NCBI GenBank assembly: GCA_949282945.1
Contig: CASDQQ010000122.1
Coordinates: forward strand, 1-38,650
Reading direction: 5' to 3'
Source: an uncultured Eubacteriales bacterium
Lineage (GTDB): Bacteria; Bacillota; Clostridia; UBA1212; CASDQQ01
Length of the DNA: 38,650 bases
This document shows positions 4,372 to 38,220 of this stretch, one piece after another. The number at the start of each line of letters is the position of its first letter. Position 1 is the stretch's first letter. The notes under the pieces are model-generated. The model had not been told where the DNA came from, did no database searches, and worked only from the letters and a program-made list of their open reading frames with translations. Made by a program: the position numbers and the translations under genes.

Positions 4372-5199
4372 TTATCCCTTTTTCTTTTTAAGATAAATTC
4401 CCGCTGCTACACCTGCTACTATGATAACGGCGGCAACGATCACTATCACGATGATAAGCGTACTGCTGTTTTCCTCCCCTTCCTCAACATCAGTGCTTGC
4501 CGTATTTGTAGACGTAGCCCTTGCTGTAGTCTGGACAGGCATATTTGTCTGGGTAGCGGTAGGCTCTTCCGTAGGAGTATCAGTAGGTTCAGCAGTAGGA
4601 GTAGATGTATCTGTTCCTGGTTCCGGAGTCTTTTCCTCTCCTTCTCCTTTTACAAATTCAAAAGTTCTGAGATTAGCTATAAAAGGATTTGTGGAAGATG
4701 TAGTTCCTCTTAATACTACATACACAGTATGCGTTCCGGTAATAACAGCATCCAACTTTCCGTTTGTATCTTCGTAAGAATCCCAGTTTCCTCCAGTGGG
4801 TTCCAAATTTATAGTTCCCATTTTTGTCCCGCCGGACCCTTCATCATAACCGTCTATCCATATTTCCATAGTCGAATCTTCAGAACATCTTCCCGAGTTA
4901 TTACAATAATTGACATTTACCGAAACAGCTCCTACCGTTCCAAAGTCATATGAATCATATTCAAGCCAGGCTCCGTCATATGTACCGCCGACATTTGTAC
5001 CTGCTTCTTCTGTTCCCTCAAATTTGATAAGATCCTGATGGAACTCGTTATACCCCTCGGTATCCCAATCAAACTCCTGAGCCTCCACAAATTCAATCTC
5101 CGTATAAGGATTAGCCGCGGCAAAGATATCCACACTGTAAAGTGAAAAAGCCAGAGCAAGAATAATCATTACAGTAATTACCGCATTTTTCTTCTTCAT
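4372..5199 (-). CDS. Surface-anchored CBM6-like carbohydrate-binding protein
   Basis: 275 residues. A signal peptide (about 1-28) leads into one beta-sandwich module (about 33-184) that resembles family 6 carbohydrate-binding modules. It opens with IEFVEAQEFD, has a GAWLEYDSYDFG segment and ends with a TVYVVLRG strand. A Thr/Pro/Glu-rich linker (about 185-245), a membrane helix (about 248-268) and a KKKKG tail follow. There is no catalytic domain and no LPXTG motif, so the lectin is probably held on the outer face of the membrane by its C-terminal helix. The ribosome site is AGGAGG. It has its own terminator and a possible promoter overlapping the end of the preceding gene. The CBM6 family call is from pattern similarity only; another galactose-binding-like fold is possible. 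Confidence 0.7.
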   Translation of the reverse strand: MKKKNAVITVMIILALAFSLYSVDIFAAANPYTEIEFVEAQEFDWDTEGYNEFHQDLIKFEGTEEAGTNVGGTYDGAWLEYDSYDFGTVGAVSVNVNYCNNSGRCSEDSTMEIWIDGYDEGSGGTKMGTINLEPTGGNWDSYEDTNGKLDAVITGTHTVYVVLRGTTSSTNPFIANLRTFEFVKGEGEEKTPEPGTDTSTPTAEPTDTPTEEPTATQTNMPVQTTARATSTNTASTDVEEGEENSSTLIIVIVIVAAVIIVAGVAAGIYLKKKKG

Positions 5200-7931: not shown

Positions 7932-9297
7932 ATGCCACCTCTGTATACAGTTTGATTTCTCTTTTTTTAAAATAAAATACACAACTTGCTTTGATTGCTG
8001 AAATCCCGTCGGCTAAAGTAAGACCTTTTGGCAAAAAGCAATTAAGATATATAAGATCCATGATCCTGGCTATTTTAACGTCTTCGGGTATCATAAGAAG
8101 AAAAAGCCGCAGATAATCATTATAGCTCAGGCTTAAAACAGATTCTGCTCTTTTATTATAATGTATCCACGTTTTCCATTGCTCCCTTTTCTTAAATAGA
8201 GGAACCTTTCCATTATTTTTTAAAATTTTATAATCTTCATTGGATTCAATTAAATTCCATGAAAGGATGATTGCCTGTTTGGCCGCGTCCTTTCCCTGAA
8301 ACTCTACTGCTATAGTAGCCGCATATGCCAGAGCCTCAGCAATCGTATTAATTTCTTTATCCTGATATATATAAATAGAATTGAATAAAAACCTTATGAG
8401 TATAGTAAGAAATTTGAAATAATCAGCATTGGTCCCGTCGCTTTTATTTCCAAAAATAATATATTCAATTTCATTTTCCAGAAAATTTTCTTTATCAATT
8501 ATATTTACACCCGAGTTAAATACTTCGATAATATATTCGTTTATAAGAAAGCTTTCATAAATCTTGTCAAATTTAAAATCCTCTCCTTTAAAAATATTTT
8601 CTGCATAACCGGCAGCTTTCTCGGCTTCGCCTCCTTCAAGCAAAGAAAGTTCATCCAGATAATTTTTTATATACTCTCCTAAAGCGTTTTTACCTATACT
8701 TCTTGAAGGAAGCCTTTTATAAATATCGTCGCTTATTTCCTTGTCCCCGTCCTTTTTCCGGTTCATCGATTTTAAAAGTTCTGCGGCTTCTTTTCTCATA
8801 TCATAGTTTTTGCCTTTGTTTTTTTCCGCTTCCTCTGACCTTTCATATTCGCCGGCTTCACTTTCTGTCACTTTGCCAAAGCTCAAAAAATCCGTTATAC
8901 TATTAAATTTTTTCAAAAAATTTTCTGCGGTCTTAACCGGAATCCGATATTTGCAAAATTCTAAAATCTGTCTTTTGATTTCACCTGGATCTTCCAAGGT
9001 TCTTTCCATACAATTTATATTCTTATATTCCAGAGGTATAAAACCGTTTTTTCTTTCATATCCGGTATTCTCCTCTATATATCCCTTTAGCCCGATTTCC
9101 GCAGGCCATGACGACATCATACAATAAATACCGTACTTTTCTCTTATTTCCCTGTTATAATCAGCCATAACGGAATATACGGAATTTTCCAATATTTCTC
9201 TGGAAATAATTTTTGCCCCCGTATATTTTATTTCGTTCATAAGCGTTCCATAGAAAAACAGAAGTATACTCAAAATCACAGCAATAAACGAAGTCAT
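7921..9297 (-). CDS. DUF5702-like Tad-associated membrane protein
   Basis: 458 residues. A single N-terminal hydrophobic helix (about 3-20) is followed by a long, charged extracytoplasmic domain rich in Lys, Glu and Ile. The opening (FYGTLMNEIKYTGAKIISREILENSVYSVMADYNREIREKYGIY) matches the DUF5702 pattern, a family that accompanies TadE genes in Clostridia. The start overlaps the stop of the upstream TadE-like gene by 4 bases (ATGA), and the end overlaps the next TadE-like gene by 11, so the three genes form one translationally coupled unit. No catalytic residues are recognised. The role in pilus assembly or surface structure is inferred from gene company only. Confidence 0.68.
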   Translation of the reverse strand: MTSFIAVILSILLFFYGTLMNEIKYTGAKIISREILENSVYSVMADYNREIREKYGIYCMMSSWPAEIGLKGYIEENTGYERKNGFIPLEYKNINCMERTLEDPGEIKRQILEFCKYRIPVKTAENFLKKFNSITDFLSFGKVTESEAGEYERSEEAEKNKGKNYDMRKEAAELLKSMNRKKDGDKEISDDIYKRLPSRSIGKNALGEYIKNYLDELSLLEGGEAEKAAGYAENIFKGEDFKFDKIYESFLINEYIIEVFNSGVNIIDKENFLENEIEYIIFGNKSDGTNADYFKFLTILIRFLFNSIYIYQDKEINTIAEALAYAATIAVEFQGKDAAKQAIILSWNLIESNEDYKILKNNGKVPLFKKREQWKTWIHYNKRAESVLSLSYNDYLRLFLLMIPEDVKIARIMDLIYLNCFLPKGLTLADGISAIKASCVFYFKKREIKLYTEVAYAK

Positions 9298-17699: not shown

Positions 17700-17741
17700 T
17701 TTTATTCTCCTTATTTGTGAATTTGATATTGCTGTTTTTTT

Positions 17742-17768
17742 ATTGTATCATATTTTTCAAAATTTCAA
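17742..17768 (-). promoter_or_regulatory. Possible promoter of the GH78 gene
   Basis: Minus-strand TTGAAA (17768-17763) and TACAAT (17747-17742) are spaced 15 bases apart, about 43 bases upstream of the start codon. The spacing is short and the region AT-rich, so this is only a candidate. Confidence 0.35.
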
Positions 17769-17809
17769 TATAAAAATTTGATTTTTTTTACCACTATTCT
17801 CATCGGATA

Positions 17810-17818
17810 TGTTAGAAT
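17810..17818 (+). promoter_or_regulatory. Possible extended -10 promoter of the GH116 gene
   Basis: TGTTAGAAT fits the extended -10 form (TG, one base, then a TATAAT-like hexamer). It lies about 42 bases upstream of the GH116 start. No clear -35 is visible. Confidence 0.35.
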
Positions 17819-17860
17819 GAAATATAAATCTTAATCAAAAATTCACGGAGGAATAAAAAT

Positions 17861-20503
17861 ATGGAAAAGACAGATTATTTTAAAATGACGGATCATAAAG
17901 GGCCAAGCGGTGTACCTCTGGGCGGAATAGGCGCAGGGTATTTTTCTATAGATCCGTCCGGTTATATAAACCGTATAAACGTAAATAATATACACAAAGA
18001 TTTTTTTCCTAAAAATCAGAAAGGATTTTTTGCGGCAGTATGGCAGGGAGGAGAAAGCCCCCGCGCGGCAAGAATACAGCTTGGCAAGGAAAAAAAGTTA
18101 GGTTTAGAAGGTTTTGATCATATTGAATACACGGGAATATTTCCCTTTTGCACATTAAAGGCTGAAAATGATACTCAGCTATTTGATTTTGACGTATCTT
18201 TAAAAGGTTATTCTTCTCTTATACCTCACAATATAAAGGATTCTTCTCTTCCCGCTGCATGGATAGACATATGCCTCTCAAACCGTACGGACCAAAATAT
18301 CGAGGTAGCGGCGGCTCTCTCCTGGGGAGACGTAATTTACAGGGGAATGAAAGATTTTAATGAACCTGTGTCAAACGCCAAATTCAGCGGCGACTCTCTT
18401 CCTTTTATCAAACCTGTAAATACCGCCGCAAAGCCTGTATATATAGACGCGGGGATGAATAGATACGCCGGTGTAAAGCAGTACGCCAAAGAAATATATT
18501 CTCCCGTAAAATGGACCTTTCAAAGTTATAACAGCGAATTTTTAATACTTGCTGAAGAAAGTGAAGACTGCGAAATTTCCATGATACCGGCCTATGGATT
18601 CGGCAGCGGATATTTCCCGCAGACATTTGAAAAAAGCGGATGTTTTGCAGATACTCCGTCAGATTATACAGTAGATCTCAGTTATGGAGGCGATCCCAAT
18701 AACGTATGCGCCGCTTCGGCAGTTTCTATCAAATCTTCTCTTGCCCCATTTGAAGAAAAAACCTTCCGCTTTATGCTTCTTTGGTTTATGCCCAAAACAA
18801 ATCCTGAGGAAATCCAAAAAGGTCCTGAAGGTTCTTTCTTTAAAAACTGCGATTACGGAAAATATTATCATAACTGGTTTGATAATTCCGAGTCTTTGGC
18901 CGCATATGTATCTGCCATAAGAGAGGAAGCTGTTTATAAAACTGAAGAATGGCAGGCTCCTATACTTATGAGTTCTCTTCCTCAATGGCTTAAATTTAAA
19001 GAGATAAACTCAGCGTATGCTCTTTATACCAACACTGTACTTACAGAGTCAGGTCTTTTTTCCACTCTCGAAGGTGAAATGGGAGGCTTGGGAGGAACTC
19101 AGGATCAAAAGCTTTCCTCACATCCCGTATATCAAAAATTCTTTACCGAACTTGATATCCAGGAAAATATGCAGTATTACAATACTATAGGAGACGATGG
19201 CGAGATACTTCACTTTGATCTTCATTACTATCATGGTATTTCAAGTTCTGATCCCGGTAAAAAAGAATCGGCCACTCCTCTCGGGTGTATGATAGACAAT
19301 GGAGGCTCATGGATAATACAGAATGCAAAAACCTACGATCAAACCGGTAACAAAAAACTTTTAGAGAGTATATATCCAGGGGTAAAAAGCTGTATGGATT
19401 TTATATACGGGAAGATTCCCGAAGAGGGCATGCATATCCCATGCTTTAGTACCACGTATGACGACGCGCAGCATCCTCCTGTTTTTATATATTCCGGAAC
19501 AATATATCTTGCCATACTTAAAGCCGCAATACATATTGCCGAGGCAATGGAAGACATCCAGACCGTCCGGAAATACAAAGCAGAATTTGAAAAAACTCTC
19601 ATTTCTTTAGAAAAACTTTTTGTAGAAAATCCTTCCGGCGAGGGCTTTTATTGCTTTGGTTCAGAAAAAGACGGCTCTGATCTCAGAACCAATATAATAT
19701 TTTCAGGCCATCTTGCCGGCCAGTTTATAAGCAGATACTGCGGGTTAGGAGATATACTTCCCTTTGAAAAATGTATATCTTCAATGAAAAAACTGCTTAC
19801 AACTTCAGTTCAGTCCGCAAAGGATTATTACGCCGCAAAAATATGGGATTTTGAAAAAAATCTGTCTCTTGATAATGCCGGTTCAAGATGCTGGCCTTTT
19901 TACCTTGAAAGCTATACGGCTATGGCCGCTATACAGCTTGGATATGTTGAGGACGGCTTAAAGATAATGGCGCATATACAAAAAGTCCACTATGACCTGG
20001 GATATACGTGGACGCAGAATCTCTGGAATCCCGCCGAAGTAACATATATGACAGTTCCGGTAACATGGTTTATAAACGATGTACTTACCGGAGCCGCTCT
20101 GGATGTAAACAGTCATACTCTTACATTAGGTCCCGTACTTCCGGAAAACAAAGAGGAGCATATTACGATTCCCCTTTACTATCCTGATTTTTGGGCTGTT
20201 TTAGACTTTTGTGAGGCTGACGGCACTTGCAGCTTTGAAATACTAAAAACATACGGCGATACCATTCACAGTATAAACAATATCCGTATACTTCCCTCCG
20301 GGCGCCCCTCGTCCGAAGCTGTAACGAAAACGCTTGAAAAGGATTTTATCATACAAGAAGGCAATATTCTCGATCTTGGCTTCTGCTGTGAAGAGTTTAA
20401 AAAGAGCAGAAAAATACCTTCTGTATTAAAGCCGGTTCCTCCATATTCTGAGAACCTCTCTTCCAAAACAGAGATAGACACCGGAGAGTCCCTTTATATT
20501 TAA
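17861..20503 (+). CDS. GH116-family glycoside hydrolase (beta-glucosidase/xylosidase type)
   Basis: 880 residues without a signal peptide. An N-terminal beta-sandwich (about 1-350) opens with GVPLGGIGAGYFS (17-29), a hallmark of GH116/GBA2-like proteins. An (alpha/alpha)6 catalytic domain follows (about 360-780). FSTLEGEMG (400-408) aligns with the nucleophile segment of the family, suggesting E404, and STTYDDAQ (530-537) with the acid/base segment, suggesting D534. Known members act on beta-glucosides, beta-xylosides or glucosylceramide; the substrate here is unknown. CGGAGG lies 9 bases before the ATG. Divergent GH78 suggests joint processing of rhamnose- and glucose-containing plant glycosides. 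The last 90 or so residues look like an accessory tail. Confidence 0.85.
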   Translation: MEKTDYFKMTDHKGPSGVPLGGIGAGYFSIDPSGYINRINVNNIHKDFFPKNQKGFFAAVWQGGESPRAARIQLGKEKKLGLEGFDHIEYTGIFPFCTLKAENDTQLFDFDVSLKGYSSLIPHNIKDSSLPAAWIDICLSNRTDQNIEVAAALSWGDVIYRGMKDFNEPVSNAKFSGDSLPFIKPVNTAAKPVYIDAGMNRYAGVKQYAKEIYSPVKWTFQSYNSEFLILAEESEDCEISMIPAYGFGSGYFPQTFEKSGCFADTPSDYTVDLSYGGDPNNVCAASAVSIKSSLAPFEEKTFRFMLLWFMPKTNPEEIQKGPEGSFFKNCDYGKYYHNWFDNSESLAAYVSAIREEAVYKTEEWQAPILMSSLPQWLKFKEINSAYALYTNTVLTESGLFSTLEGEMGGLGGTQDQKLSSHPVYQKFFTELDIQENMQYYNTIGDDGEILHFDLHYYHGISSSDPGKKESATPLGCMIDNGGSWIIQNAKTYDQTGNKKLLESIYPGVKSCMDFIYGKIPEEGMHIPCFSTTYDDAQHPPVFIYSGTIYLAILKAAIHIAEAMEDIQTVRKYKAEFEKTLISLEKLFVENPSGEGFYCFGSEKDGSDLRTNIIFSGHLAGQFISRYCGLGDILPFEKCISSMKKLLTTSVQSAKDYYAAKIWDFEKNLSLDNAGSRCWPFYLESYTAMAAIQLGYVEDGLKIMAHIQKVHYDLGYTWTQNLWNPAEVTYMTVPVTWFINDVLTGAALDVNSHTLTLGPVLPENKEEHITIPLYYPDFWAVLDFCEADGTCSFEILKTYGDTIHSINNIRILPSGRPSSEAVTKTLEKDFIIQEGNILDLGFCCEEFKKSRKIPSVLKPVPPYSENLSSKTEIDTGESLYI

Positions 20504-20517
20504 TAAATCAGTCTAAA

Positions 20518-20561
20518 AAAGCCTCTGACCTTCCCGTAAGCCGGGAATTATCAGAGGCTTT
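20518..20561. terminator. Bidirectional terminator between GH116 and the Gfo/Idh operon
   Basis: Perfect 11-base outer arms (20518-20528 and 20551-20561) enclose an inner 6-base stem (20531-20536 with 20542-20547). T-rich runs follow on both strands. It can stop the plus-strand GH116 transcript and the minus-strand LacI-led operon, which ends 32 bases away. Confidence 0.88.
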
Positions 20562-20592
20562 AATTTTTATATCACTTTACAATTTCAGATTT

Positions 20593-21642
20593 TTAAACGG
20601 AAATGCTCTTCCCTGTCTTTCCTGACTCAAAAATAGCGTCCATGACCCTGAGCACCGCAAGAATTTCTTCTGGCTTTACCACAAGCTCGGCTTTTCCATC
20701 TATAGCGTCAAAAACATTTTTGTAAAAATCTGACCAATGAGTATTTACTGTAGGAAGAGGTATTTCTTTCGTAGTCTCTATAGGTCTCGGAGCCATAGAT
20801 CTTGTAGGTCCGGCGGCGGTATACACGATTTTTTCCTCCCAGGCCATAGTAGAATCACCGTTTAAAGCCACCATCTTTCCGTTACAGTCCCAGTCGTTTA
20901 TGACTGCCGTTCCGTCGCTTGCTGATATATGCCATCTCGGATGAAGGATAAAGCAGTTCATAGAAACCTCTATCAGGGCGCTTATACCATTTTCAAAGCG
21001 TAAGATTGCTTTGAAATTATCGTCTACTTCGTCAGTAAAAATATAGAACAGATCGGCATAAACCTCTTTTACTGGAGATTTAATCATCCACATCATCTGG
21101 TCTATAAGATGGACTCCCCAGTCGTAAACCATTCCTCCTCCGTTTACAGCGGATCCTCTCCACCCATGAAGTACCTGCCTTGAACCCTGTACGCGGCTTT
21201 CTATCATATAGATATCGCCTATAGTTTTGTTATCGTAAATATTCTTCACGATATTAAAATCTCTGTCCCATCTTCTATTCTGATGAGTAGTCAATATTCT
21301 GCCGTTTTTAAGGGACGCTTCAATTATTTCTTCATAGTCGGCGGCGCTCATTGTAGCAGGCTTTTCTGTAACCACGTTTTTCCCCGCGTTTAAAGCTTTT
21401 ATAGCTATAGGCTTATGGGAATCGTTTGGAGTAGCTATCGTCACAAGCTCTATTTCATCGTCGGCAAGTATTTCTCCTATTGAAGAATATGTATAAAGAC
21501 CTTCCTTCATGGCGGCTTCAAGCCTCTCCTGCCGTATATCGTAAACCCCCTTGACCTGCAATATATCAGAAAGTTCGTTTTTTATAGAGGAGCAGTGCCA
21601 GCTTCCCATTCCTCCGTACCCTATTACAGCCATTTTTCTCAT
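20593..21642 (-). CDS. Gfo/Idh/MocA family oxidoreductase (copy A, last gene of the operon)
   Basis: 349 residues. An N-terminal Rossmann fold has GYGGMG (8-13). EKP (93-95) carries the lysine usually counted as catalytic. The C-terminal alpha/beta domain contains VYDWGVHLIDQ (172-182), where H178 and D181 match the usual active-site pair. The family oxidises or reduces sugars and inositols with NAD(P); some members oxidise C3 of intact glycosides. GAGGTG lies 7 bases before the ATG. It is the last gene of the LacI-led operon and is only a distant relative of the other Gfo/Idh copy, so the two probably catalyse different steps. Substrate unknown. Confidence 0.9.
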   Translation of the reverse strand: MRKMAVIGYGGMGSWHCSSIKNELSDILQVKGVYDIRQERLEAAMKEGLYTYSSIGEILADDEIELVTIATPNDSHKPIAIKALNAGKNVVTEKPATMSAADYEEIIEASLKNGRILTTHQNRRWDRDFNIVKNIYDNKTIGDIYMIESRVQGSRQVLHGWRGSAVNGGGMVYDWGVHLIDQMMWMIKSPVKEVYADLFYIFTDEVDDNFKAILRFENGISALIEVSMNCFILHPRWHISASDGTAVINDWDCNGKMVALNGDSTMAWEEKIVYTAAGPTRSMAPRPIETTKEIPLPTVNTHWSDFYKNVFDAIDGKAELVVKPEEILAVLRVMDAIFESGKTGKSISV

Positions 21643-21677
21643 TTTACAACACCTCTTACTCAGCTTATATTACTCTA

Positions 21678-22598
21678 TTATATCAGCGGTCTTAAATTAT
21701 CAAGGGCGATCTCAAGACCTTTTTGTACTTTTTCAAGAGAGCCTTCATACTTCGGATCTTCATGTTCAATACTGATGACTCCGTCATACCCCGCGTCCTT
21801 TAAAGCGTCTATCCACGCCTTAAAATCTATATCCCCAAGACCCGGCATGGTAGGTACCCAATAACTTTCTCCGGGACGGTCGAAAAGCTGTTTATTGAAT
21901 ACGCCAACTTCTGAAAGAACTTTTTCTTTGACTAACACATCCTTCGCGTGAACATGGAAAATCCTGTCTTTGAACTCTTTTATAGGAGTTATATAGTCCA
22001 TAAGCATAAAGCGGAGGTGCGAAGGGTCGTAATTAAGGCCAAAATTTTTATTTGGCACTCTGCTGAACATCTCTCTCCACAGTTCGGGCGAAAACGAAAT
22101 AGTGCCCGGGAGTCCTGCCACCTGCCAACCGGTCATAGGACAGTTTTCGATCATAACCCTTATATTTTTCTTTTCCGCATAGTTTACGATATCGCTGAAT
22201 ATCTTTTCAAAAAGGATAAAATTATCCTGTAGAGAAATGGTATGATCTCTTCCAACAAAAGTTCCTATGGTATCCACATGAAGCATCTCAGCCGCGTCTA
22301 TGACTTTGTATACATGATTGTTTACAGTTTCTCTTAATTTCAGGTCGGCGGCAAGATTATTATCATAGTATGCCAGCGACGATATAGTAAGTCCCATTTC
22401 TTTTAAATAAGCGTTTATTTCGTCGGCTTTCTCCTGTGTAAGAGCAGCAACGTCAATATCCGTAGCGGAATAATCTCTGTCATTAAGTTTAGGCCAACAT
22501 GAAATTTCTATAGATTTCATACCGTGGTCCGCGGCCCATTGCGCTTTTTCTTTTAGGGGTATATTCCCCATACATCCAGTTAAAAATCCCAAATGCAT
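21678..22598 (-). CDS. Xylose isomerase-like TIM-barrel sugar isomerase/epimerase
   Basis: 306 residues, the size of AP endonuclease 2 / sugar phosphate isomerase (IolE, DgpB-like) proteins. A single TIM barrel carries the expected metal ligands: E151 (VMIENCPM), D191 and H194 (LNYDPSHL), H217 (FHVHAKD) and E278 (ISIEHED). It probably isomerises, epimerises or eliminates on a keto-sugar or keto-glycoside made by a neighbouring Gfo/Idh enzyme. AAAGGAG lies upstream of the ATG. The gaps are 35 bases to the downstream Gfo/Idh gene and 33 to the upstream ThuA-like gene. The exact reaction cannot be read from sequence. Confidence 0.88.
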   Translation of the reverse strand: MHLGFLTGCMGNIPLKEKAQWAADHGMKSIEISCWPKLNDRDYSATDIDVAALTQEKADEINAYLKEMGLTISSLAYYDNNLAADLKLRETVNNHVYKVIDAAEMLHVDTIGTFVGRDHTISLQDNFILFEKIFSDIVNYAEKKNIRVMIENCPMTGWQVAGLPGTISFSPELWREMFSRVPNKNFGLNYDPSHLRFMLMDYITPIKEFKDRIFHVHAKDVLVKEKVLSEVGVFNKQLFDRPGESYWVPTMPGLGDIDFKAWIDALKDAGYDGVISIEHEDPKYEGSLEKVQKGLEIALDNLRPLI

Positions 22599-22631
22599 AT
22601 AATCACTCTCCTTTTGTTTTTAATGTATTTT

Positions 22632-23345
22632 TTAATCTTTCCCTGCTTCTGCAGGTTTAGAATTAGGGCAGCCTATCTGCTCTCTGCGTACCATCGGAGC
22701 AGCCCATTTCACAGCGTTTTTCAATATCCTGACAATATTTTTATCATAATATGTCGGAAACTGCTCATGACCAGGCTGAAAATAAAATATCTTCCCATAT
22801 CCTCTTGTAAAGGTACAGCCTGAGCGGAAAAGCTCTCCTCCTGCAAACCACCCCATAAAAACGATATCGTCAGGTTTAGGTATATCAAAATACTCTCCGT
22901 ACATTTCTTCCCTTGGCAGCTCAAAATGTTCAGGAAGACCCTGGGCAATAGGATGAGAAGGCGCGGTCACCCATAATCTCTCCCGGTCGTCATCTCTCCA
23001 TTTCAGAGTACATGACGTTCCCAATATCCTTGTGAACGGTTTTGAAAGGTGCGCCGAATGAAGAGCTATAAACCCCATTCCCTTTAAAACTGCTCTATGT
23101 ACCATATCCACTACACAGTCCGGTACCTGTCCGTGGGCGCAGTGTCCCCACCACAGCATTACGTCGGTCTTATCGAGCAAATCTTCTGTAACCACCTTTT
23201 CTACATCTTCTAAAGTAGTTACCGTAATATTATTTCCGTCAAAATCCAAAGCCTGTTTTAAAGCTCCGTGTATTCCCTCCGGATAAATCTGCTTCATCCA
23301 CTCTTCTTTATCATGGACGCCTTCGTTGTATATTAAAATATTCAT
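22632..23345 (-). CDS. ThuA-like protein (class I amidotransferase-like fold)
   Basis: 237 residues. The body matches the ThuA/trehalose-utilisation family: LIYNEGVHDKE near the N-terminus, DVMLWWGHCAHGQVPD (81-96), GFIALHSAHLSKPFTRILG and the late GRGYGKIFYFQPGHEQFPTYY (written here as TRGYGKIFYFQPGHE in the protein). The fold is a class I glutamine-amidotransferase type without the nucleophile Cys triad. Members often sit beside Gfo/Idh dehydrogenases in sugar catabolism, and some are linked to keto-disaccharide metabolism. The biochemical role is not settled. AGAGG precedes the ATG. It lies 20 bases after the upstream Gfo/Idh gene in the same operon. Confidence 0.85.
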   Translation of the reverse strand: MNILIYNEGVHDKEEWMKQIYPEGIHGALKQALDFDGNNITVTTLEDVEKVVTEDLLDKTDVMLWWGHCAHGQVPDCVVDMVHRAVLKGMGFIALHSAHLSKPFTRILGTSCTLKWRDDDRERLWVTAPSHPIAQGLPEHFELPREEMYGEYFDIPKPDDIVFMGWFAGGELFRSGCTFTRGYGKIFYFQPGHEQFPTYYDKNIVRILKNAVKWAAPMVRREQIGCPNSKPAEAGKD

Positions 23346-25578: not shown

Positions 25579-27870
25579 TTAATCGTTCTTTTTAAATTTT
25601 CCCGCAACAAATTTTACAAAAGCCTCCATTGCGGAAAATTGAGCCTTATTTTCATTTATAAGATACGTCCATGTGGCCGCCGGTACTTCCAGGCCCATTT
25701 TTTCAAGCTCAATGCCGTTTTTTCCGACGTCCGCGCTAAGGAAAGATTCTATTACGTTGCTGTCAATTTCGGCGGTCATATTGGAAAAAGCGTTTACAGC
25801 TATACGGTTATACTCGTCCACCGGATCTTTTTGGCCTATTATAACAAGGTGTATGCCTTCCTTTTCATATTCCATATAATCTATATACTCGGACCATGCC
25901 TTCCGGGTATGATAAAGAGTCAGGTCCCTTTCGCATTTTTTTGCCACGTTCTCTCCAAACTTCTCACAAACCTGATTATATTTTTCCCCGCAGTTATTTT
26001 TAAGCAGCGTGAATTCAGTCTGTCCGTTAAGTATACTCATACATTTATCATGTATTATCCTTCTTTGCTGTTCTATTACATAAGTATATTTTAAAAGCTG
26101 TATACGCGCGTTTTCATTATAGGTTTCTACTCTTCTTTGAAGCCACGCCACCGCTTCCGTAACATTCTTATCTTCTATGACGCCGTTTTCATCACAGGAA
26201 AAACCTTTTTCCGGCAGAAAATTTTTCACCTCGTATTTTTTCATCATATCGTCTTCCAGACTGACAAAAAACCTTGTCTTTCCAGGGTCGCCCTGTCTTC
26301 CTGCTCTTCCCCTGAGCTGATTGTCTATACGCCTGCTCTCATTCCTGTTGGTTCCTATAACGTAAAGACCGCCAAGCTCAAAAACCTTTTCATAGTCCTT
26401 CTGATCAAAACCCCCGAGCCTTATATCCACCCCTCTTCCGGCCATATTGGTTGAAACGGTCACCGCCCCGTAAGCACCGGCGTTTTTGATTATGTCGGCT
26501 TCCTCCTCGTCGTTTTTGGCGTTAAGTACTTCACACTCAATTCCTTTTTTCTTCAGTTCCTCGTAAAGCCCTTCCGACTCCAAAACGCTTCCCGTTCCTA
26601 TCAGGACGGGCTGGCCGTTCAGGTGCGCGTCCTCAATTTCCTTCACGAGCATTTTCATTTTACTCTCTCTGTCTTTAAAAATAATATCGGGAAGATCCTT
26701 TCTTATACATTTTATATGGGGTTCTATCCTTACTATTTCAAGATTATAATATTCAAAAAATTCATCCCCGGCTGGGTTCGCGGTACCGGTCATGCCTGAA
26801 ATCTTCTTATACATGCTTAAAAAATGCTGAAGGGGTATGGAGTTTAATATCATGCTCTTCTGGCTGCTTATGATTCCCTCCTTCATCCTTACGGCGTCCT
26901 GAAGTATATCGGGATACTGACGCTTCTCAGCTACTCTTCCAGTAAATTCGTCCACGATTTCTATATCCCCGTCTCTGACAATATAATCCTTATCTTTTTT
27001 TAATATAAAATTGGCATAAAGCGATGAAAGAAGGACCTCTAGCATTTCTGTGTTTTCTTGGCTGTACAGATTTTCAACTCCAAGCAGTCTTTCAGCAAGA
27101 GACAGTCCCTCTTCCGTAAGGCTAACCTTTTCTGCGTATTTATTTAGTTTAAAATCTCTTTCCGCTTCAAACTCTTTAACATAACTATTTATTTTTATTA
27201 AAAATGAATTATCCCTCTTAACGTTTCCGGCTATCACAAGGGGTATCCTCGCCTCATCCACAAGTACAGAATCCGCCTCGTCCACTATGGCAAAGTTAAA
27301 TTCTCTCTGAACTATATTGTCGGCGCTGCTTGCCATAAAATCTCTCAGATAATCAAATCCGGCCTCTTTTGCGCATATATACGTTACATCACATCCATAC
27401 AGTTCTCTTCTTCTTTCCCTTGGCGTATCTTCGGTTATATACCCCACCGTCACGCCTAAAAGGTCGTATACTGGTTTCATCCACAGAGCATCCCTTTTAG
27501 CAAGATAATCATTAAATGTCAATATGTGGACGCCTTCGCCCCTTAGACTGTTAAGATAAGCCGGTAAAACCGCCGCAAGCGTCTTTCCCTCTCCCGTATC
27601 CATTTCCACTATATGTCCCGTGTGCAAAGCAGAAGCGGCCATGATCTGAGTATCAAAAAGCTCAAGGCCAAGAGCTCTTTTTACAGCCTCTTTAACCAGA
27701 GCAAATGCTTCTGTCATAAGCTTGTCTAACTTTTCGCCATTTATCGCCCTATGTCTGAGTTCATCTGACATGTTAAACAATTCATCTTCGGTACATGCAG
27801 AAAGATCATATTTATTTACTAAGGCAAGTTCTTTTTCGTATATTCCGCTCTTCTTTTTAAATCCAAACAT
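25579..27870 (-). CDS. secA: Divergent SecA-type preprotein translocase ATPase (possible accessory SecA)
   Basis: 763 residues, shorter than the roughly 840 of canonical Firmicute SecA. The helicase core is intact: MDTGEGKT (90-97), VDEADSVLVDEARIPLVIAG (196-215), KKISGMTGTA, STNMAGRGVDIRLGG and RRIDNQLRGRAGRQGDPG. The segment DVTYICAKEAGFDYLRDFM (161-179) departs from the near-universal TNNE-FGFDYLRDNM of housekeeping SecA. The C-terminal zinc motif is missing; the protein ends KFVAGKFKKND. The start is 27870, where AAGGAG lies 7 bases upstream; the longer frame runs into the previous gene. One base separates it from the radical SAM stop, so the two are probably translationally coupled. Accessory function is an inference; a diverged sole SecA cannot be excluded from this window. 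Confidence 0.85.
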   Translation of the reverse strand: MFGFKKKSGIYEKELALVNKYDLSACTEDELFNMSDELRHRAINGEKLDKLMTEAFALVKEAVKRALGLELFDTQIMAASALHTGHIVEMDTGEGKTLAAVLPAYLNSLRGEGVHILTFNDYLAKRDALWMKPVYDLLGVTVGYITEDTPRERRRELYGCDVTYICAKEAGFDYLRDFMASSADNIVQREFNFAIVDEADSVLVDEARIPLVIAGNVKRDNSFLIKINSYVKEFEAERDFKLNKYAEKVSLTEEGLSLAERLLGVENLYSQENTEMLEVLLSSLYANFILKKDKDYIVRDGDIEIVDEFTGRVAEKRQYPDILQDAVRMKEGIISSQKSMILNSIPLQHFLSMYKKISGMTGTANPAGDEFFEYYNLEIVRIEPHIKCIRKDLPDIIFKDRESKMKMLVKEIEDAHLNGQPVLIGTGSVLESEGLYEELKKKGIECEVLNAKNDEEEADIIKNAGAYGAVTVSTNMAGRGVDIRLGGFDQKDYEKVFELGGLYVIGTNRNESRRIDNQLRGRAGRQGDPGKTRFFVSLEDDMMKKYEVKNFLPEKGFSCDENGVIEDKNVTEAVAWLQRRVETYNENARIQLLKYTYVIEQQRRIIHDKCMSILNGQTEFTLLKNNCGEKYNQVCEKFGENVAKKCERDLTLYHTRKAWSEYIDYMEYEKEGIHLVIIGQKDPVDEYNRIAVNAFSNMTAEIDSNVIESFLSADVGKNGIELEKMGLEVPAATWTYLINENKAQFSAMEAFVKFVAGKFKKND

Positions 27871-27871
27871 T

Positions 27872-28744
27872 TTATTCTCCTTTAAATCTGCTTCTGTAGC
27901 CGCACCTTCTGCAAAGTTCCTCCACAGCCCTTCCATTTGTGAATCCATTATAAATTTTTATTGCTCTTTCTGAATTTAATATATCCGAAAGAGGTTTTTG
28001 AAAAATATTTCCCAGATTTATTTTTCCCTCTCCGTCGAGGCAGCAGGGTACCACGCTCCCGTCGCATAAAACGGCGAACTGATTCCTGAGTCCAAGACAA
28101 AATGCCCGTCCGTTTTTTATATCACCATTAAGATCCGGCCATTCAAACCTGTCGGCCTGACATAAAAAAATCCGCCTTCTCAATCTTATTCCGTTTATAG
28201 ACTTCATACTGTCAGTAACTTTAAATGCAAGTCCGAATCTGTTTTCTATTTCTTCTATAAGCCTTTTACTATGATAGCTGTTTTCATAATCCGAGTTTAA
28301 ATTCCATATTCTAAGCTTGCATGTAAACATATCCTGCTCCCCCGCTCTTTCCGCAAAAGAAAAAACATCAAAGATATATTTATCAAACTCCTCTTCGCGC
28401 CCTTCAATGCTGTGCAGAGAAATATTTACCGTACGGAGAGCCTTAGAACCTAATAAAATATCGCTTTTTTTACATAACAGCGTACCGTTGGTAGTTATGT
28501 TAGCCTTTATATCATATAGCTCGCACAGTCCTAATATCTCCTCAAGATACGGATTTAAAAGCGGTTCACCCATAACGTGAAGATAAATTTCCTTAGCCAA
28601 CGGCTTTACCTGCTTTAATATGTGTTCAAAATCCGCAGCCTTCATAATTGAATTTTTTATATTATAAGTGCGTTTTCCCATAGGACAAAAGCCGCAGGAC
28701 AAATTACACATATTGGTTATTTCTATATAAGCTCTTTTATACAA
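27872..28744 (-). CDS. Radical SAM/SPASM-domain protein
   Basis: 290 residues. ITNMCNLSCGFCP gives the Cys-x3-Cys-x2-Cys [4Fe-4S] site (C13, C17, C20). GEPLLNP and TTNGTLL are typical radical SAM segments. The C-terminal part has a SPASM-like pattern (CLGL, LCDGSVVPCCLDGEG, INLGNI, LCRRCGYRS) that should hold an auxiliary cluster. The start codon is TTG at 28744 with GGAAGG about 9 bases upstream; the next ATG would begin immediately before the cluster motif and remove a core strand. No precursor-peptide gene was found next to it. The substrate is unknown. It lies 40 bases after plsC and one base before secA. Confidence 0.85.
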   Translation of the reverse strand: MYKRAYIEITNMCNLSCGFCPMGKRTYNIKNSIMKAADFEHILKQVKPLAKEIYLHVMGEPLLNPYLEEILGLCELYDIKANITTNGTLLCKKSDILLGSKALRTVNISLHSIEGREEEFDKYIFDVFSFAERAGEQDMFTCKLRIWNLNSDYENSYHSKRLIEEIENRFGLAFKVTDSMKSINGIRLRRRIFLCQADRFEWPDLNGDIKNGRAFCLGLRNQFAVLCDGSVVPCCLDGEGKINLGNIFQKPLSDILNSERAIKIYNGFTNGRAVEELCRRCGYRSRFKGE

Positions 28745-33029: not shown

Positions 33030-34058
33030 TTATTTTTTACTTTTTTTATTAATGATTATTATTCCGCATACGACGATTGCTACAGTAAGAATGACAACTG
33101 TGACAATTATCCACAGATCTCCGGAGTTTTCGCTTTCTTCCCCTGGTGTTTGGGAAATATTTTCAGAAGTTTCCTGGATATTTTCTGTAGGGTCTACGGT
33201 TTTTTCAGTTTGTTCAGGTGTTTGGGAAGGCGCCTCTGTAACGACTTCTTCTACAAACGGAGTAGTATAAAGTTCTGAAATATTCTCAGCGCTGAGAGCA
33301 ACATCATAGGCTCTTATCTCATCTATCGCGCCGTCGCTCATGGGCCAATCCCAATATCCTCTTCCAAGACCATTAAAATAATCTTTCTTATTACCATCCA
33401 TACTATTCAGGGCATACGCGTCATACATTTTATAGCTGTCGGCGGTTTCCACAAGAACTCCGTCCACATAGAATTCAAACTTATCAGCTTCTTCACCCTT
33501 TATACATGTTAAAGTGTACATATGCCACCCTACTATCGAAACCTCATTCTTTTCAAGATAATTTCTGTTCTCGGCGTCGCCCTCCGGCGTAGAAAATACG
33601 CACATTCTGCCATTTTTCACTTCAAAGCACATATAAAATTCTATTCCGAGTCCGCAAAAGTGCAGCGGCATAGAACCTTCCGGCGTATTCTCAGTACCCA
33701 TATACCAAAAAGATATGGTAAATTCATCTTCAAACTGAGCTAACATCCTTTCCGGAAGCTGTATCCAGGAAGTGGTAGCCGGATCCCCCGCAACCAGTTT
33801 TGCAGCCTTCCCGTATCCTTCCATGCTATCCACCGTTCCGTTAAATTCCGCGTCATCAGGCATATACCAATCCCCAACTGTAAGGAACGCGTCTCCGCTC
33901 AGTTCCCCGCTGTTTTCCAACTCCTCCGCTCCGTCAAAGTTATAGTAAAACATTAAATTGTCGGAAAAATTAGGTTCTGCTCCATAACATACGGTTCCAA
34001 CAGAAAGAATCACAGCTATAACTGTAAGCAATGCAAATGATTTTACTAATTTTTTCAT
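33030..34058 (-). CDS. Surface LamG/concanavalin-like lectin protein, membrane-anchored copy
   Basis: 342 residues. A signal peptide (about 1-26) leads into one LamG-type jelly-roll module (about 29-269), with SWIQLPERMLAQFEDEFTISFWYMG, WHMYTLTCIKG, FYVDGVLVE and the closing SDGAIDEIRAYDVALSAENISELY. A Thr/Glu/Pro linker (about 270-313), a membrane helix (about 315-337) and KKSKK follow. No enzyme domain. AAGGAGG lies 6 bases before ATG 34058; a longer open frame to 34232 overlaps the next gene and is rejected. It is the last gene of the GH172 operon and a tandem duplicate of the gene before it: 269 codons align without gaps. After ELYTTPFV the two copies become unrelated. Probably displays a glycan-binding module at the cell surface. 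Confidence 0.85.
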   Translation of the reverse strand: MKKLVKSFALLTVIAVILSVGTVCYGAEPNFSDNLMFYYNFDGAEELENSGELSGDAFLTVGDWYMPDDAEFNGTVDSMEGYGKAAKLVAGDPATTSWIQLPERMLAQFEDEFTISFWYMGTENTPEGSMPLHFCGLGIEFYMCFEVKNGRMCVFSTPEGDAENRNYLEKNEVSIVGWHMYTLTCIKGEEADKFEFYVDGVLVETADSYKMYDAYALNSMDGNKKDYFNGLGRGYWDWPMSDGAIDEIRAYDVALSAENISELYTTPFVEEVVTEAPSQTPEQTEKTVDPTENIQETSENISQTPGEESENSGDLWIIVTVVILTVAIVVCGIIIINKKSKK

Positions 34059-35100
34059 AAATACCTCCTTAAAAGGCAGTAACATTAACGTTACTGGCCT
34101 TATATAACTAAAACAATTATTTTTTCTTAAGCCTAAGCCCTCCAACTGCGGAAACCACTCCCGCCGCAAAAATGTAAAGTACTGAAATATCTCCTGTCTT
34201 AGCCGGAGTATCTTTGTTACCATCATTTTCATTGTTATTATTACCTTCTTCGGTACCGCCCTGATTTCCAGGATCCTCAGTAGGGGTTTCTCCTACAAAG
34301 GGAGTAGTATAAAGCTCTGAAATGTTCTCCGCGCTGAGCGCAATATCGTACGCTCTTATCTCATCTATCGCTCCGTCGCTCATAGGCCAATCCCAATATC
34401 CTCTTCCAAGGCCGTTATATAAATCTTTTCTATTTCCGTCTGCCTTATTCATAGCATATGCGTCATACATTTTATAGCTGTTTGCGGTTTCAACAAGAAC
34501 TCCGTCCACGTAAAACGCAAACTCATCTGTCTCCTCTCCCTTTATGCAGGTTAAAGTGTACATATGCCATCCTACTATCGAAACCTCGTTCTTTTCAAGA
34601 TAATTTCTATTTTCAGCATCGCCCTCCGGAGTAGAAAATACGCTCATTTTCCCATTTTTCACTTCAAAACACATATAAAATTCTATTCCGTTTCCGCAAA
34701 AGTGCAGCGGCATTGAGCCTTCTGGCGTATTCTCAGTACCCATGTACCAAAAAGATATAGTAAATTCCTCTTCAAATTGAGCCAGGATCCTTTCCGGAAG
34801 CTGTATCCAAGAGGTAGTAGCCGGATCCCCCGCAACTAATTTCGCCGCTTTTCCGTATCCTTCCTTGCTATCCACAGTTCCGTTAAATTCCGCATTCTCC
34901 GGTTTAAAAAAATCCCCTACGGTCAGGAAAGCGTCTCCGCTCAGCTCCCCGCTGTTTTCCAATTCTTCCTCTCCGTCAAAGTTATAGTAGAACATTAAAT
35001 TGTCGGAAAGATTGGGTTCCGATCCGTAGCACACTGACCCAAACAAAAGAATGGTCGCTATAACCGTAAACACTGCAAACAACTTTACTAATTTTTTCAT
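33252..35100 (-). repeat. Tandem gene duplication (two 807-bp copies)
   Basis: The copies are 33252-34058 and 34294-35100, both running from the start codon to the same codon (Val of TTPFV), equal in length with no indel. By eye about 26 of roughly 238 aligned mature-domain residues differ, and many differences in the DNA are synonymous. Sequence 3' of the shared block is unrelated between copies. Confidence 0.85.
34117..35100 (-). CDS. Surface LamG/concanavalin-like lectin protein, PAKTG-tail copy
   Basis: 327 residues. Signal peptide (about 1-26), one LamG-type module (about 29-269) nearly identical to that of the downstream copy, then a Gly/Asn-rich linker (about 270-298) and a sortase-like sorting tail: PAKTGD at 299-304, a hydrophobic helix and LRLKKK. 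PAKTG is a loose LPXTG variant of the kind used by some clostridial sortases; no sortase gene is in this window. The other copy lacks any such motif and ends in a plain membrane helix. GGAGG precedes the ATG. It begins 11 bases after the GH172-like gene. Probably binds a carbohydrate near the wall, but the ligand is unknown. Confidence 0.85.
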   Translation of the reverse strand: MKKLVKLFAVFTVIATILLFGSVCYGSEPNLSDNLMFYYNFDGEEELENSGELSGDAFLTVGDFFKPENAEFNGTVDSKEGYGKAAKLVAGDPATTSWIQLPERILAQFEEEFTISFWYMGTENTPEGSMPLHFCGNGIEFYMCFEVKNGKMSVFSTPEGDAENRNYLEKNEVSIVGWHMYTLTCIKGEETDEFAFYVDGVLVETANSYKMYDAYAMNKADGNRKDLYNGLGRGYWDWPMSDGAIDEIRAYDIALSAENISELYTTPFVGETPTEDPGNQGGTEEGNNNNENDGNKDTPAKTGDISVLYIFAAGVVSAVGGLRLKKK

Positions 35101-35111
35101 AGATATCCTCC

Positions 35112-37169
35112 TTAAATTTTTGTTTTTATTTTAAAAATATAATATATAACTAAAATCAAAGCGCTCAGAGGTATAGCAAACAGCAGCCACATCCACGATA
35201 TCTTATGGTGCGTTATTTCGACATATATTTCACTGTCTTGGCTTTTTTCATAGGAAAATATCTGATATGATGTCTCGCCGAATTTATATCCTTCTAATGT
35301 TTTAAATGTTATAGAAACAGTTTCCTTTCCCTCAACAAAGCTCTCAGGAATATAATAATCATCATATCTCATGAAGTCTTCGGAGCCTCTGTTAAACGTA
35401 TTGATCCAATTGCCCACAAATTTTCCGTCCACATATACCGCGGCACCCTGCTTAGCGTCATCCATTTTAAATAACCTGCGGATCATTAATCCTTTTGATT
35501 TTCCCGAAAGTTCCGCTTTTATTTCGGACGTTCCGTCAAGCAGTCTTTCTGTTACTCTTTCAGATGATTCAGACGTGCTGTAATACCCTTCAAGTTTTAT
35601 CTTTACCGTGCGTTCCTCTCCGCTTCCGTCTACCACATCTGAAATAACATTGGAAGCAATTTCTTTACATAAAGCGTTTTCCTTATGATAATAAATGGTA
35701 AGGACATTGGCATATACGCCTTTTGAATCATTAGACCCTCCGTGTTCTATAGTCATATCAATCCCATTGTCAAAATATATCGGACAATATGACATAAATC
35801 TATACGCGTTATTTTTAGTACTTCCGTCCTCTTCTGTTTTTAAAACAGTACATCCGGAAAATTCATTAGAAAAAGTACCTCCCACATAGTACCATGCGCC
35901 TCCATAAAAATCTTCCGTTCCGGTCCCGTGTATCGCATGGCTTTTAGAGCCGTTAATATACGCTATTTCATCCCCTTCTAAATGGCCCCAACCTTCCGGA
36001 GATTTAAGAGACTGTATCACTCCCACGATCTTTCCCGCTCCGGAGGATTTCAAAATAGTTATAGGTTCCCCTTCTTTACAGGTATCATATGTATTATTCT
36101 GAGTTTTTAAATAAGCAATATTAGAAAAATCCGTATTTTCATCTAACGTTTCTTTCTGTATCTCCACAATTACATTTTCCGCTTCGGGAATATATTCAGT
36201 ACAGTTAAGACGTATATCTATACTTTTTTCATAGGGCATTGGAAGGTAAAAATACGCGGTTCCATCCGCCGTTATTCCCTGAGACAATCCCTTTACGCTA
36301 TAGTAATCAAATTCTCCCATTCCCAATAACATTCCGAGAGTCCCTTCAATGTCCGGTTCTTTTTTTCCGTCATAGTATACTTCCAAAGAAAGATTCTTGA
36401 AAATTTCCCCTCTTTCCTCCTTAGTAAAACTTCTGAAATCCGGAATATCTATTATTATCCCCCTTATTATACCGGGACCATTTTCCCCTAAAACTTCGAT
36501 AGTCGCATTCTTTTTTAAAGAAACTGTTTTTTTCACACTTTCGTACTGTCCCAGATTAGGATTATCGCCCACTTCCACAGAATACCACTCAGGAAGATCA
36601 GGGGTATCCGCGGCCTTGAAAGATGTTACACTGTAGTCAGCGGGAAACAAGGTATAATCAATGTCATAATAACTGGCGTATGTCTGGACTATCTTTATGG
36701 ATTTCTGAAAGTAAATAGGCATGTGAGTATATACGCCTCCTCCACTTTTACTTCCGCTTCCCACCCATGGAGACAATAGAGGCGCTTTGTTTCCGCTGAA
36801 AAATTCATTGTAAGAAAGAGACACCTCCGGAGTTTCCTGTCCGTCAATATAAATAGACAAAATACTAGACTGCATATGTTCTGCATATCCGGCTATAAAA
36901 ATACGGTTTACTACTCCTGGGCCTTCTGCTTCTAAAAGAACAGATTCTTCTTTGCTGACCTCTCCGCTCAAAGAAAAACCGTCAGCGTTTCCTCCTGTCA
37001 AATCGTAACTTGACGCGCTCCTTGTCTGCATTCCCGGGATCAGTTCATAAAGATTTGAAAAATCATTTTTATATTGTTTCGTTTTGTCCTGATTTCCACA
37101 TACATTTAAAGAAAAAGTTATAATCAATACAGAAAAATATAAAAATGCTGCAATTACGCTCTTTAACAT
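35112..37169 (-). CDS. DUF2961 / GH172-like surface glycosidase, membrane-anchored
   Basis: 685 residues. A signal peptide (about 1-26, LNVC is only a poor lipobox) is followed by a DUF2961 jelly-roll catalytic unit (about 36-500), a C-terminal beta domain (about 515-645) and a membrane helix (about 657-680) ending KIKTKI. GWGHLEGDE (394-401) and HGTGTEDFYGGAWYY (414-428) are the family hallmarks. E398 and E419 are 21 residues apart, the same spacing as the two catalytic glutamates (E270, E291) reported for the GH172 difructose-anhydride enzyme. Known GH172 members act on alpha-fructofuranosidic or D-arabinofuranosidic bonds; the substrate here is unknown. It heads an operon with two LamG proteins and faces an AraC gene. 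Confidence 0.85.
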   Translation of the reverse strand: MLKSVIAAFLYFSVLIITFSLNVCGNQDKTKQYKNDFSNLYELIPGMQTRSASSYDLTGGNADGFSLSGEVSKEESVLLEAEGPGVVNRIFIAGYAEHMQSSILSIYIDGQETPEVSLSYNEFFSGNKAPLLSPWVGSGSKSGGGVYTHMPIYFQKSIKIVQTYASYYDIDYTLFPADYSVTSFKAADTPDLPEWYSVEVGDNPNLGQYESVKKTVSLKKNATIEVLGENGPGIIRGIIIDIPDFRSFTKEERGEIFKNLSLEVYYDGKKEPDIEGTLGMLLGMGEFDYYSVKGLSQGITADGTAYFYLPMPYEKSIDIRLNCTEYIPEAENVIVEIQKETLDENTDFSNIAYLKTQNNTYDTCKEGEPITILKSSGAGKIVGVIQSLKSPEGWGHLEGDEIAYINGSKSHAIHGTGTEDFYGGAWYYVGGTFSNEFSGCTVLKTEEDGSTKNNAYRFMSYCPIYFDNGIDMTIEHGGSNDSKGVYANVLTIYYHKENALCKEIASNVISDVVDGSGEERTVKIKLEGYYSTSESSERVTERLLDGTSEIKAELSGKSKGLMIRRLFKMDDAKQGAAVYVDGKFVGNWINTFNRGSEDFMRYDDYYIPESFVEGKETVSITFKTLEGYKFGETSYQIFSYEKSQDSEIYVEITHHKISWMWLLFAIPLSALILVIYYIFKIKTKI

Positions 37170-37350: not shown

Positions 37351-38220
37351 ATGCAGGAATTTAATAATATTTCACCTTATATAAGATTAGCCACACATTG
37401 TCACCTTTTGGCGCCCTGGCATATATGTCCCAGAGTCATTTGGGACTATGAATTAATTTTCCTAAAGAAAGGAAACTTTTTAGTTAAAGTAGAAAATAAA
37501 GAATTTCATGCTCAGGCGGGAGATATACTTTTCTTCAGGCCTTTGCAGGAACATGAAATCATTTTACTCGACGACGACTACTGCCTTCAGCCTCATATAC
37601 ATTTTGATCTTATCCAGGACGAGCTGTCTCCTCAAATAAAAATATGTTTCAGAAATTTCAATAGTCTGACCGATTATGAAAAGACTTTATTCCGTCCCGA
37701 TATAACTTCCCAGGGAGACTCTGTCCTTCCTTCTCTGATAAGGCTTAAAAATTCTTCTTCTTTTGAAAACATGCTTTATGACATTATCGATGAATTTAAC
37801 AGTAAAATGCCTTTTTATGAAATGCGCATGAAAGGAAAATTTATTGCTCTTTGGGCATATCTTTTGACTGCAAATTACAAGAAAAATAACGAAATTCTTT
37901 ATGGCAATTATCAGGAACTTCTGGATATTAAAGAATACATTGCCGCTAACGCAAACCGTTCTCTGACATTGGACGAACTCTCTTCAAAATACAATATAAA
38001 CAAACGCTATCTGCTGAAAAAATTTAAATGTGCTTTCCGTATTACTCCCATGCACTACCATAACGCTCTGCGCTTTGAGAAGGCCAGAGAGCTTTTACAG
38101 TATACTAACAAGTCCATCAGTGAAATTTCTACCGAATTGGGATTTACTAACGCAATGGTATTTAGCAGAGCCTTCAAAAATTTTGACGGGGTTCCGCCGT
38201 CTTATTACCGTCTGAGGTAA
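37351..38220 (+). CDS. AraC-family transcriptional regulator
   Basis: 289 residues. An N-terminal cupin-type sensing domain (about 1-150, with YELIFLKKGNFLVKVENKEFHAQAGDILFFRP) is joined to a C-terminal double helix-turn-helix (about 185-289, with LTLDELSSKYNINKRYLLKKFK and ISEISTELGFTNAMVFSRAFKNFDGVPPSYYR). CAGGAGG lies 6 bases before the ATG. It is divergent from the GH172-LamG operon by 181 bases and is the obvious regulator of it; two direct half-site-like repeats lie in between. Sugar-binding is a family inference; the effector is unknown. It is followed by a plus-strand deacetylase-like gene, with no clear terminator in the 94-base gap. Confidence 0.92.
   Translation: MQEFNNISPYIRLATHCHLLAPWHICPRVIWDYELIFLKKGNFLVKVENKEFHAQAGDILFFRPLQEHEIILLDDDYCLQPHIHFDLIQDELSPQIKICFRNFNSLTDYEKTLFRPDITSQGDSVLPSLIRLKNSSSFENMLYDIIDEFNSKMPFYEMRMKGKFIALWAYLLTANYKKNNEILYGNYQELLDIKEYIAANANRSLTLDELSSKYNINKRYLLKKFKCAFRITPMHYHNALRFEKARELLQYTNKSISEISTELGFTNAMVFSRAFKNFDGVPPSYYRLR

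Follow-up and report, generated by a model that had tools for sequence, protein, structure and literature searches.

The window analyzed here, which is the whole of contig C122 (38,650 nucleotides), carries two tandem LamG genes, A and B, that are duplicates of each other up to a sharp break and end beyond it in tails of two different classes; the tail of A shows DNA-level kinship with the tail of a C108 gene, five tandem pairs in the same draft genome are split between the two tail classes, and the genome holds a class B sortase (C-numbers denote contigs of this genome). The draft genome, 84% complete, totals 1.92 Mb over 153 contigs. The named relatives of apgM, a housekeeping gene in the window, come from bins of Clostridia sampled in goat rectum and water-deer colon (57-60% identity), so the source organism is probably an uncultured clostridium of the herbivore gut. 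The locus is headed by a divergent AraC-family regulator gene (37351..38220, plus strand), and a gene for a DUF2961 (GH172-type) surface enzyme (35112..37169, minus strand) lies upstream of A in the same direction, 11 nt away. Gene A (34117..35100, minus strand) encodes 327 aa with a signal peptide, a Laminin_G_3 domain, an acidic linker and a PAKTGD sorting-signal-type tail, and gene B (33030..34058, minus strand) encodes 342 aa with a signal peptide, a Laminin_G_3 domain, a Thr/Pro/Glu linker, a transmembrane helix and a KKSKK end. The two lie in tandem on the same strand downstream of the DUF2961 gene, and both are complete, in frame and provided with ribosome-binding sites; the start of B was taken as the ATG at 34058, and an alternative longer ORF (400 aa, from 34232) would overlap gene A. 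No transporter was recognized among the window ORFs adjoining the A/B pair, while the enzyme and the AraC regulator are both present, and anchored-protein genes occur in AraC/glycosidase loci.

By change-point fit the duplicated segment covers codons 1-277 of each gene, that is the signal peptide, the ectodomain and the start of the linker (A, 34270..35100; B, 33228..34058; both minus strand). The N-terminus of A, read from the sequence, is hydrophobic and signal-peptide-like (MKKLVKLFAVFTVIATILLFGSVCYG). Residues 95-261 of both proteins matched Laminin_G_3, in A (34318..34818, minus strand) with E = 6.7e-16 and 59.2 bits and in B (33276..33776, minus strand) with E = 4.1e-15 and 56.7 bits, both exceeding the Pfam gathering cut-off of 27.6 bits. 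As the original prediction of two LamG genes with gap-free shared codons had it, codons 1-269 align without a gap, 237 of the 269 residues being identical and the codon differences amounting to 66 synonymous and 32 non-synonymous ones; the ectodomains match with E = 5e-175 at 88% identity. Over the shared region dN was 0.064 and dS 0.748 (dN/dS ~0.09), and dS was fairly even along residues 31-269 (0.62-0.81). These values indicate that the duplication is old and that the ectodomains are under strong purifying selection, and the dN/dS of ~0.09 makes it plausible that A and B bind the same ligand. An AlphaFold model of A built on a two-sequence alignment had a mean pLDDT of 37.7 and was unusable. 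A contig scan of genomes returned no relatives of the LamG pair, and none were found in phages; among 57 other genomes, LamG gave two weak matches only, both within one genome of the class.

The tails had been predicted to switch abruptly at codon 269. The switch itself and the lack of relatedness between the tails hold, but the exact codon does not, since anything from 269 to 277 fits almost equally well, the best position being codon 277 (lnL gain 94.9, against 94.4 for codon 271 and 91.2 for codon 269). Nucleotide identity between A and B is 85% to the left of the break and 29% to the right; codons 270-277 retain some leftover in-register similarity (E271, T274, E275, P277), and past codon 277 the two tails show no detectable homology, 99 of 300 shuffles scoring equally well. 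The interval first given for the feature, 33252-35100, leaves out B's own tail (33033-33251), and the reading of A as PAKTG plus a helix and of B as a Thr/Glu-type linker plus a membrane helix is borne out for both genes. In A the PAKTG motif (residues 299-303; 34192..34206, minus strand), recognized in the sequence and by an 11-gene tail profile, is followed by D304 and then by a hydrophobic stretch and an LRLKKK end (34120..34188, minus strand) whose maximum 18-residue hydropathy of 2.08 is typical of its class; this arrangement of an LPXTG-variant motif (PAKTGD), an 18-residue weak helix and LRLKKK is of the sorting-signal type. In B the Thr/Pro/Glu linker leads into a strong Ile/Val transmembrane helix (LWIIVTVVILTVAIVVCGIIII; 33051..33116, minus strand; maximum 18-residue hydropathy 3.25), followed by NKKSKK.

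When the genome itself was searched with A and B, many genes matched just in their last 50-70 residues. Donors of the tails had been proposed as a thing to look for, and C108 yielded a tail of possible donor type for A, on a gene whose ectodomain is unrelated to that of A. This tail is the closest to A's (48% protein identity, E = 3e-10), and at the DNA level the two are 70% identical over the last 93 nt, all other tails reaching 37-55%; the local DNA score was 123, with shuffles reaching at most 36. The alignment runs on in register for about 24 nt beyond the stop codon, up to a terminator-like hairpin in both, although this post-stop kinship is weak by itself (61 of 2000 shuffles). The hairpin of the A-B gap (GGCCAGTAAC-GTTACTGCC followed by TTTT; 34073..34101, minus strand; -12.9 kcal/mol, z -1.85) is terminator- or attenuator-like, and its position matches that of the GGTCCG..CGGACC-TTTTTT terminator of the C108 gene. 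The nearest LamG ectodomain outside the pair, on C30 (E ~1e-13 to 1e-16), is joined to a tail of the B type, which makes the tail of A the probable later arrival. Taken with the match between the A and C108 tails, this suggests as the simplest order that the duplication came first and that the tail of A was replaced later, and we infer both the direction and the recombination mechanism from these relationships. The A-B gap was also considered as holding a remnant of the 3′ end of the DUF2961 gene (TTG-TTTTAGTTATATA, 12 of 1000 shuffles), an idea that is weakened because the same bases also align in register with the 3′ flank of the C108 gene.

The two kinds of tail recur through the genome. 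Profile searches gave 11 strong matches to the A tail and about 20 genes for the B tail, and the compiled set has about 13 tails of the A type and 20 of the B type, counts that rest on these searches and on reading of the stretches around the matches. The classes differ in maximum helix hydropathy (A mean 2.16, range 1.82-3.05, versus B mean 3.46, range 2.92-3.73; p ~2e-6) and in linker make-up, which is D/N/G/E-rich in A (0.50) and T/P/S-rich in B (0.44), each difference having p ~1e-5 to 2e-6. Most of the 11 strong A-type members have PxKTGD, and their helices are mostly weaker than those of the B class. Five tandem homologous pairs were found in the genome, and every one of them combines one A-type with one B-type tail, over a range of 40-88% ectodomain identity and at least four domain families: genes A and B on C122 (LamG, 88%), a second LamG pair on C148 (63%), a weakly CBM35-like pair on C17 (47%; its A partner is truncated at the contig end), a family without a Pfam match on C95 (42%) and a further such family on C80 (40%). 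By label permutation the split of 5/5 pairs has p = 0.020 (12 A and 22 B labels), a post hoc and modest value. The differing identities and families imply that the split pairs arose in several separate events. The A-type members on C80 and C17 have the motifs PKTAD and PVTAD, and may escape sortase cleavage because both are without the Gly of TG. Splits occur outside tandem pairs as well: a CBM6 protein of the window (4372..5199, minus strand) has a B-type tail and its homologue on C93 (40% over 77 aa) an A-type tail, and among PA14 homologues the one on C47 is A-type and those on C128 and C60 are B-type. The membrane partner of the C148 pair (locus L102, 1911-5035) has an added calcineurin-like phosphoesterase domain and Big_2, and this pair adjoins a GxGYxYP lipoprotein-like enzyme. 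A clear same-tail pair of the genome consists of B-type homologues on separate contigs, C48 (4288-5193, L049) and C73 (7146-8045, L051), which are 53% identical with near-identical tails.

In G004 and G006, two genomes from another family of the same order, small B-type proteins are likewise frequent, and homologous tandem partners can both end in a transmembrane tail, for example on contig C16 of G004 (76% ectodomain identity). One F5/8C-like tandem pair has two different tails, kept in both species (G004 C124, 2880-4617, L164; G006 C353, 2136-3799, L171), and one of its tails has NPGTND, which recalls the motifs of class B sortases. Anchored binders are thus commonly duplicated in tandem within the order, and the splitting of tails is a tendency and no rule, since these relatives hold same-tail tandem pairs. 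The C95 and C80 ectodomain families were not found in 30 further genomes of the order, nor was that of C80 found in 390 other genomes of the class. The B-tail profile matched 23 of 31 genomes of the order (E <= 1e-4), but because it is partly a generic membrane-helix signal, B-tail counts outside the own genome were left aside.

With moderate confidence, we propose that a small secreted LamG carbohydrate-binder, encoded behind a GH172-type enzyme in an AraC-controlled glycan-use locus, was duplicated in tandem, and that the C-terminal tail of copy A would then have been replaced by one of the sorting-signal kind seen on the C108 gene, the join falling within the disordered linker just past codon 269-277, while in copy B the older tail, a Thr/Pro/Glu linker plus a membrane helix, would have been retained. 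The ectodomains would be held alike by purifying selection, A would most likely be cut between the Thr and Gly of PAKTG by the housekeeping sortase of class B and then linked to peptidoglycan, and B would stay in the membrane, such that the same glycan might be held at two envelope depths beside the enzyme. Duplication followed by tail exchange, as originally predicted, is well supported by tails without detectable homology and by the presence of a donor-type A tail in the genome. It is unlikely, in our estimate, that the tails were never exchanged and that A and B are older paralogues with differing tails, whose ectodomains were equalized up to the linker by gene conversion. A sharp border at the linker would be equally expected from such homogenization, and the other split pairs are far more divergent (40-63%), as old unconverted pairs would be; however, dS is fairly even over residues 31-269, so any conversion of the ectodomains must be old, and the kinship of the A and C108 tails together with the B-type tail of C30 is explained most simply if A acquired its tail.

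A sortase that might accept PAKTG had also been suggested as something to seek, and a candidate class B enzyme is encoded on C136 (11080-12021; 183.6 bits against the cut-off of 153.75 for NCBIfam model TIGR03064), its acceptance of PAKTG being putative. Four more sortases lie in pilus-like clusters, and 3 of the 4 score above the class C cut-off; clusters on C61 (L055) and C25 (L056) carry proteins of LPETGG/LPFTGG/LPQTG type, and these two clusters together have 3 class C sortases and 1 unclassified. SrtB of C. difficile acts on (S/P)PKTG (PMC5118464), and its substrates bear SPKTG or PPKTG (PMC5118464, PMC5569036). By this analogy PAKTG would be a plausible but less than ideal class B substrate, since the Pro at motif position 2 that is favored by C. 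difficile SrtB is missing. From the tails we infer A in the wall and B in the membrane, a placement that sequence alone cannot fix for A because a sorting signal left uncut can itself keep its protein in the membrane, as in C. difficile, where a protein whose motif or sortase was removed remained there unprocessed (PMC5569036). That same observation, with the degenerate motif of some pair members (PKTAD, PVTAD), speaks for an arrangement to which we give little probability, namely that PAKTG is a poor substrate, that the tail of A is a weaker membrane anchor, and that both proteins sit in one place with the exchange functionally minor; the prevalence of PxKTGD among the 11 strong A-type members, their mostly weaker helices, which are like those of sorting signals, and the class B sortase in the genome argue against it. 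Gradual divergence of a single ancestral tail into two is refuted by these data and very improbable: linkers do evolve quickly and both tails have a helix and a basic end, but the tails align like shuffled DNA while synonymous sites of the adjacent ectodomain are still alignable (dS 0.75), and the tail of A has a nearer relative in another gene than in B. The least probable explanation is the wrong joining of two genes in a fragmented metagenome bin (153 contigs, 84% complete), given that A and B are complete and in frame with ribosome-binding sites and that the same split occurs in four further pairs on other contigs. The window also encodes a second SecA-like translocase (25579-27948, minus strand; 751.7 bits against a cut-off of 725 for the NCBIfam mycobacterial SecA2 model), which could serve the export of some surface proteins.

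The A/B pair is made of known parts, and it is the repeated split of tandem duplicates within one genome that is unusual; our literature search for paralogues with swapped sortase and membrane anchors found no direct precedent. The substrates of C. difficile SrtB likewise combine a signal peptide, a P-x-K-T-G-type motif, a hydrophobic stretch and a basic end, and a class B sortase is present here too, but the motif here is PAKTG and not (S/P)PKTG, the helix ends in a recurring GGLKLRKK, and cleavage is predicted. The best-known precedent for one family with different anchors is that of the Listeria internalins, in which one ectodomain family carries different C-terminal anchors (LPXTG in InlA/F/H/J/K, GW modules in InlB; PMC4010754). 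There, however, sortase anchoring is set against GW/teichoic acid binding, whereas here a sortase-type tail is set against a membrane helix in tandem genes, and within a single genome the split recurs in at least four ectodomain families unrelated to each other. The Csc clusters of Lactobacillus plantarum and others are similar in serving carbohydrate use and in combining a C-terminal transmembrane anchor on CscA with LPxTG on CscD (PMC1534035), but Csc proteins with differing anchors are mutually non-homologous, whereas the partners here are duplicates, and no WxL proteins were noticed in passing here. The locus resembles gpPULs in its AraC-type regulator, glycosidases and surface sugar-binding proteins; a gpPUL is defined by a degrading enzyme, a transporter and a regulator (PMC5320581), whereas here there are a regulator, a surface enzyme and two lectin copies, with no transporter found directly beside A/B. 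The recurrence of the split across the genome outweighs the single A/B case and suggests that wall-type and membrane-type forms of a single binder have been produced here repeatedly, with tails that appear to behave as exchangeable DNA cassettes. Such splits amount to a natural replicated experiment on anchor choice in Gram-positives: in matched pairs with near-identical ectodomains the anchor's own contribution becomes measurable, and two-depth display of glycan binders becomes a testable hypothesis. More speculatively, and with low probability in our estimate, double anchoring might be systematic in the lineage, binders being duplicated and re-tailed so that wall and membrane copies jointly pass glycans from the outer wall on to membrane-bound enzymes, and tail cassettes moving between unrelated genes via linker recombination.

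The neighboring enzyme matches DUF2961 with E = 9.2e-46, and in an alignment its Glu398 and Glu419 correspond to the catalytic residues E270 and E291 of alphaFFase1 (7v1v), with a spacing of 21 in both. The substrates of characterized GH172 enzymes are alpha-D-arabinofuranosides or alpha-D-fructofuranosides (PMC10115798, PMC8605356). The C95 pair adjoins a DUF2961 enzyme carrying the same Glu motif, and next to the LamG gene on C30 lie two genes for GH127 enzymes (beta-L-arabinofuranosidase). For a profile of six LamG proteins the best solved relative was an extracellular arabinanase, matched in its LamG-like domain (5ho0/5hon; E 2.5e-14 to 4e-14), a similarity that, together with the glycosidase neighbors, suggests carbohydrate binding by A and B. 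Because of the GH172 and GH127 neighbors and the arabinanase-like LamG, the ligand is probably a furanose-containing glycan, with arabinofuranose or fructofuranose. Elsewhere in the window, an ORF at 6951-7982 (minus strand) has a TadE-like N-terminus (NKGSVTVETAIIFPVVMI) and a C-terminus matching the CDI toxin EC869-like nuclease model (E = 2e-7), an odd combination in which the nuclease match may be spurious. The stretch 14955-23345 holds a GH78-type rhamnosidase, a GH116-like enzyme, ThuA and sugar dehydrogenase/isomerase-like genes, and with no surface anchor among them it forms a second sugar locus of the window, of an intracellular type.
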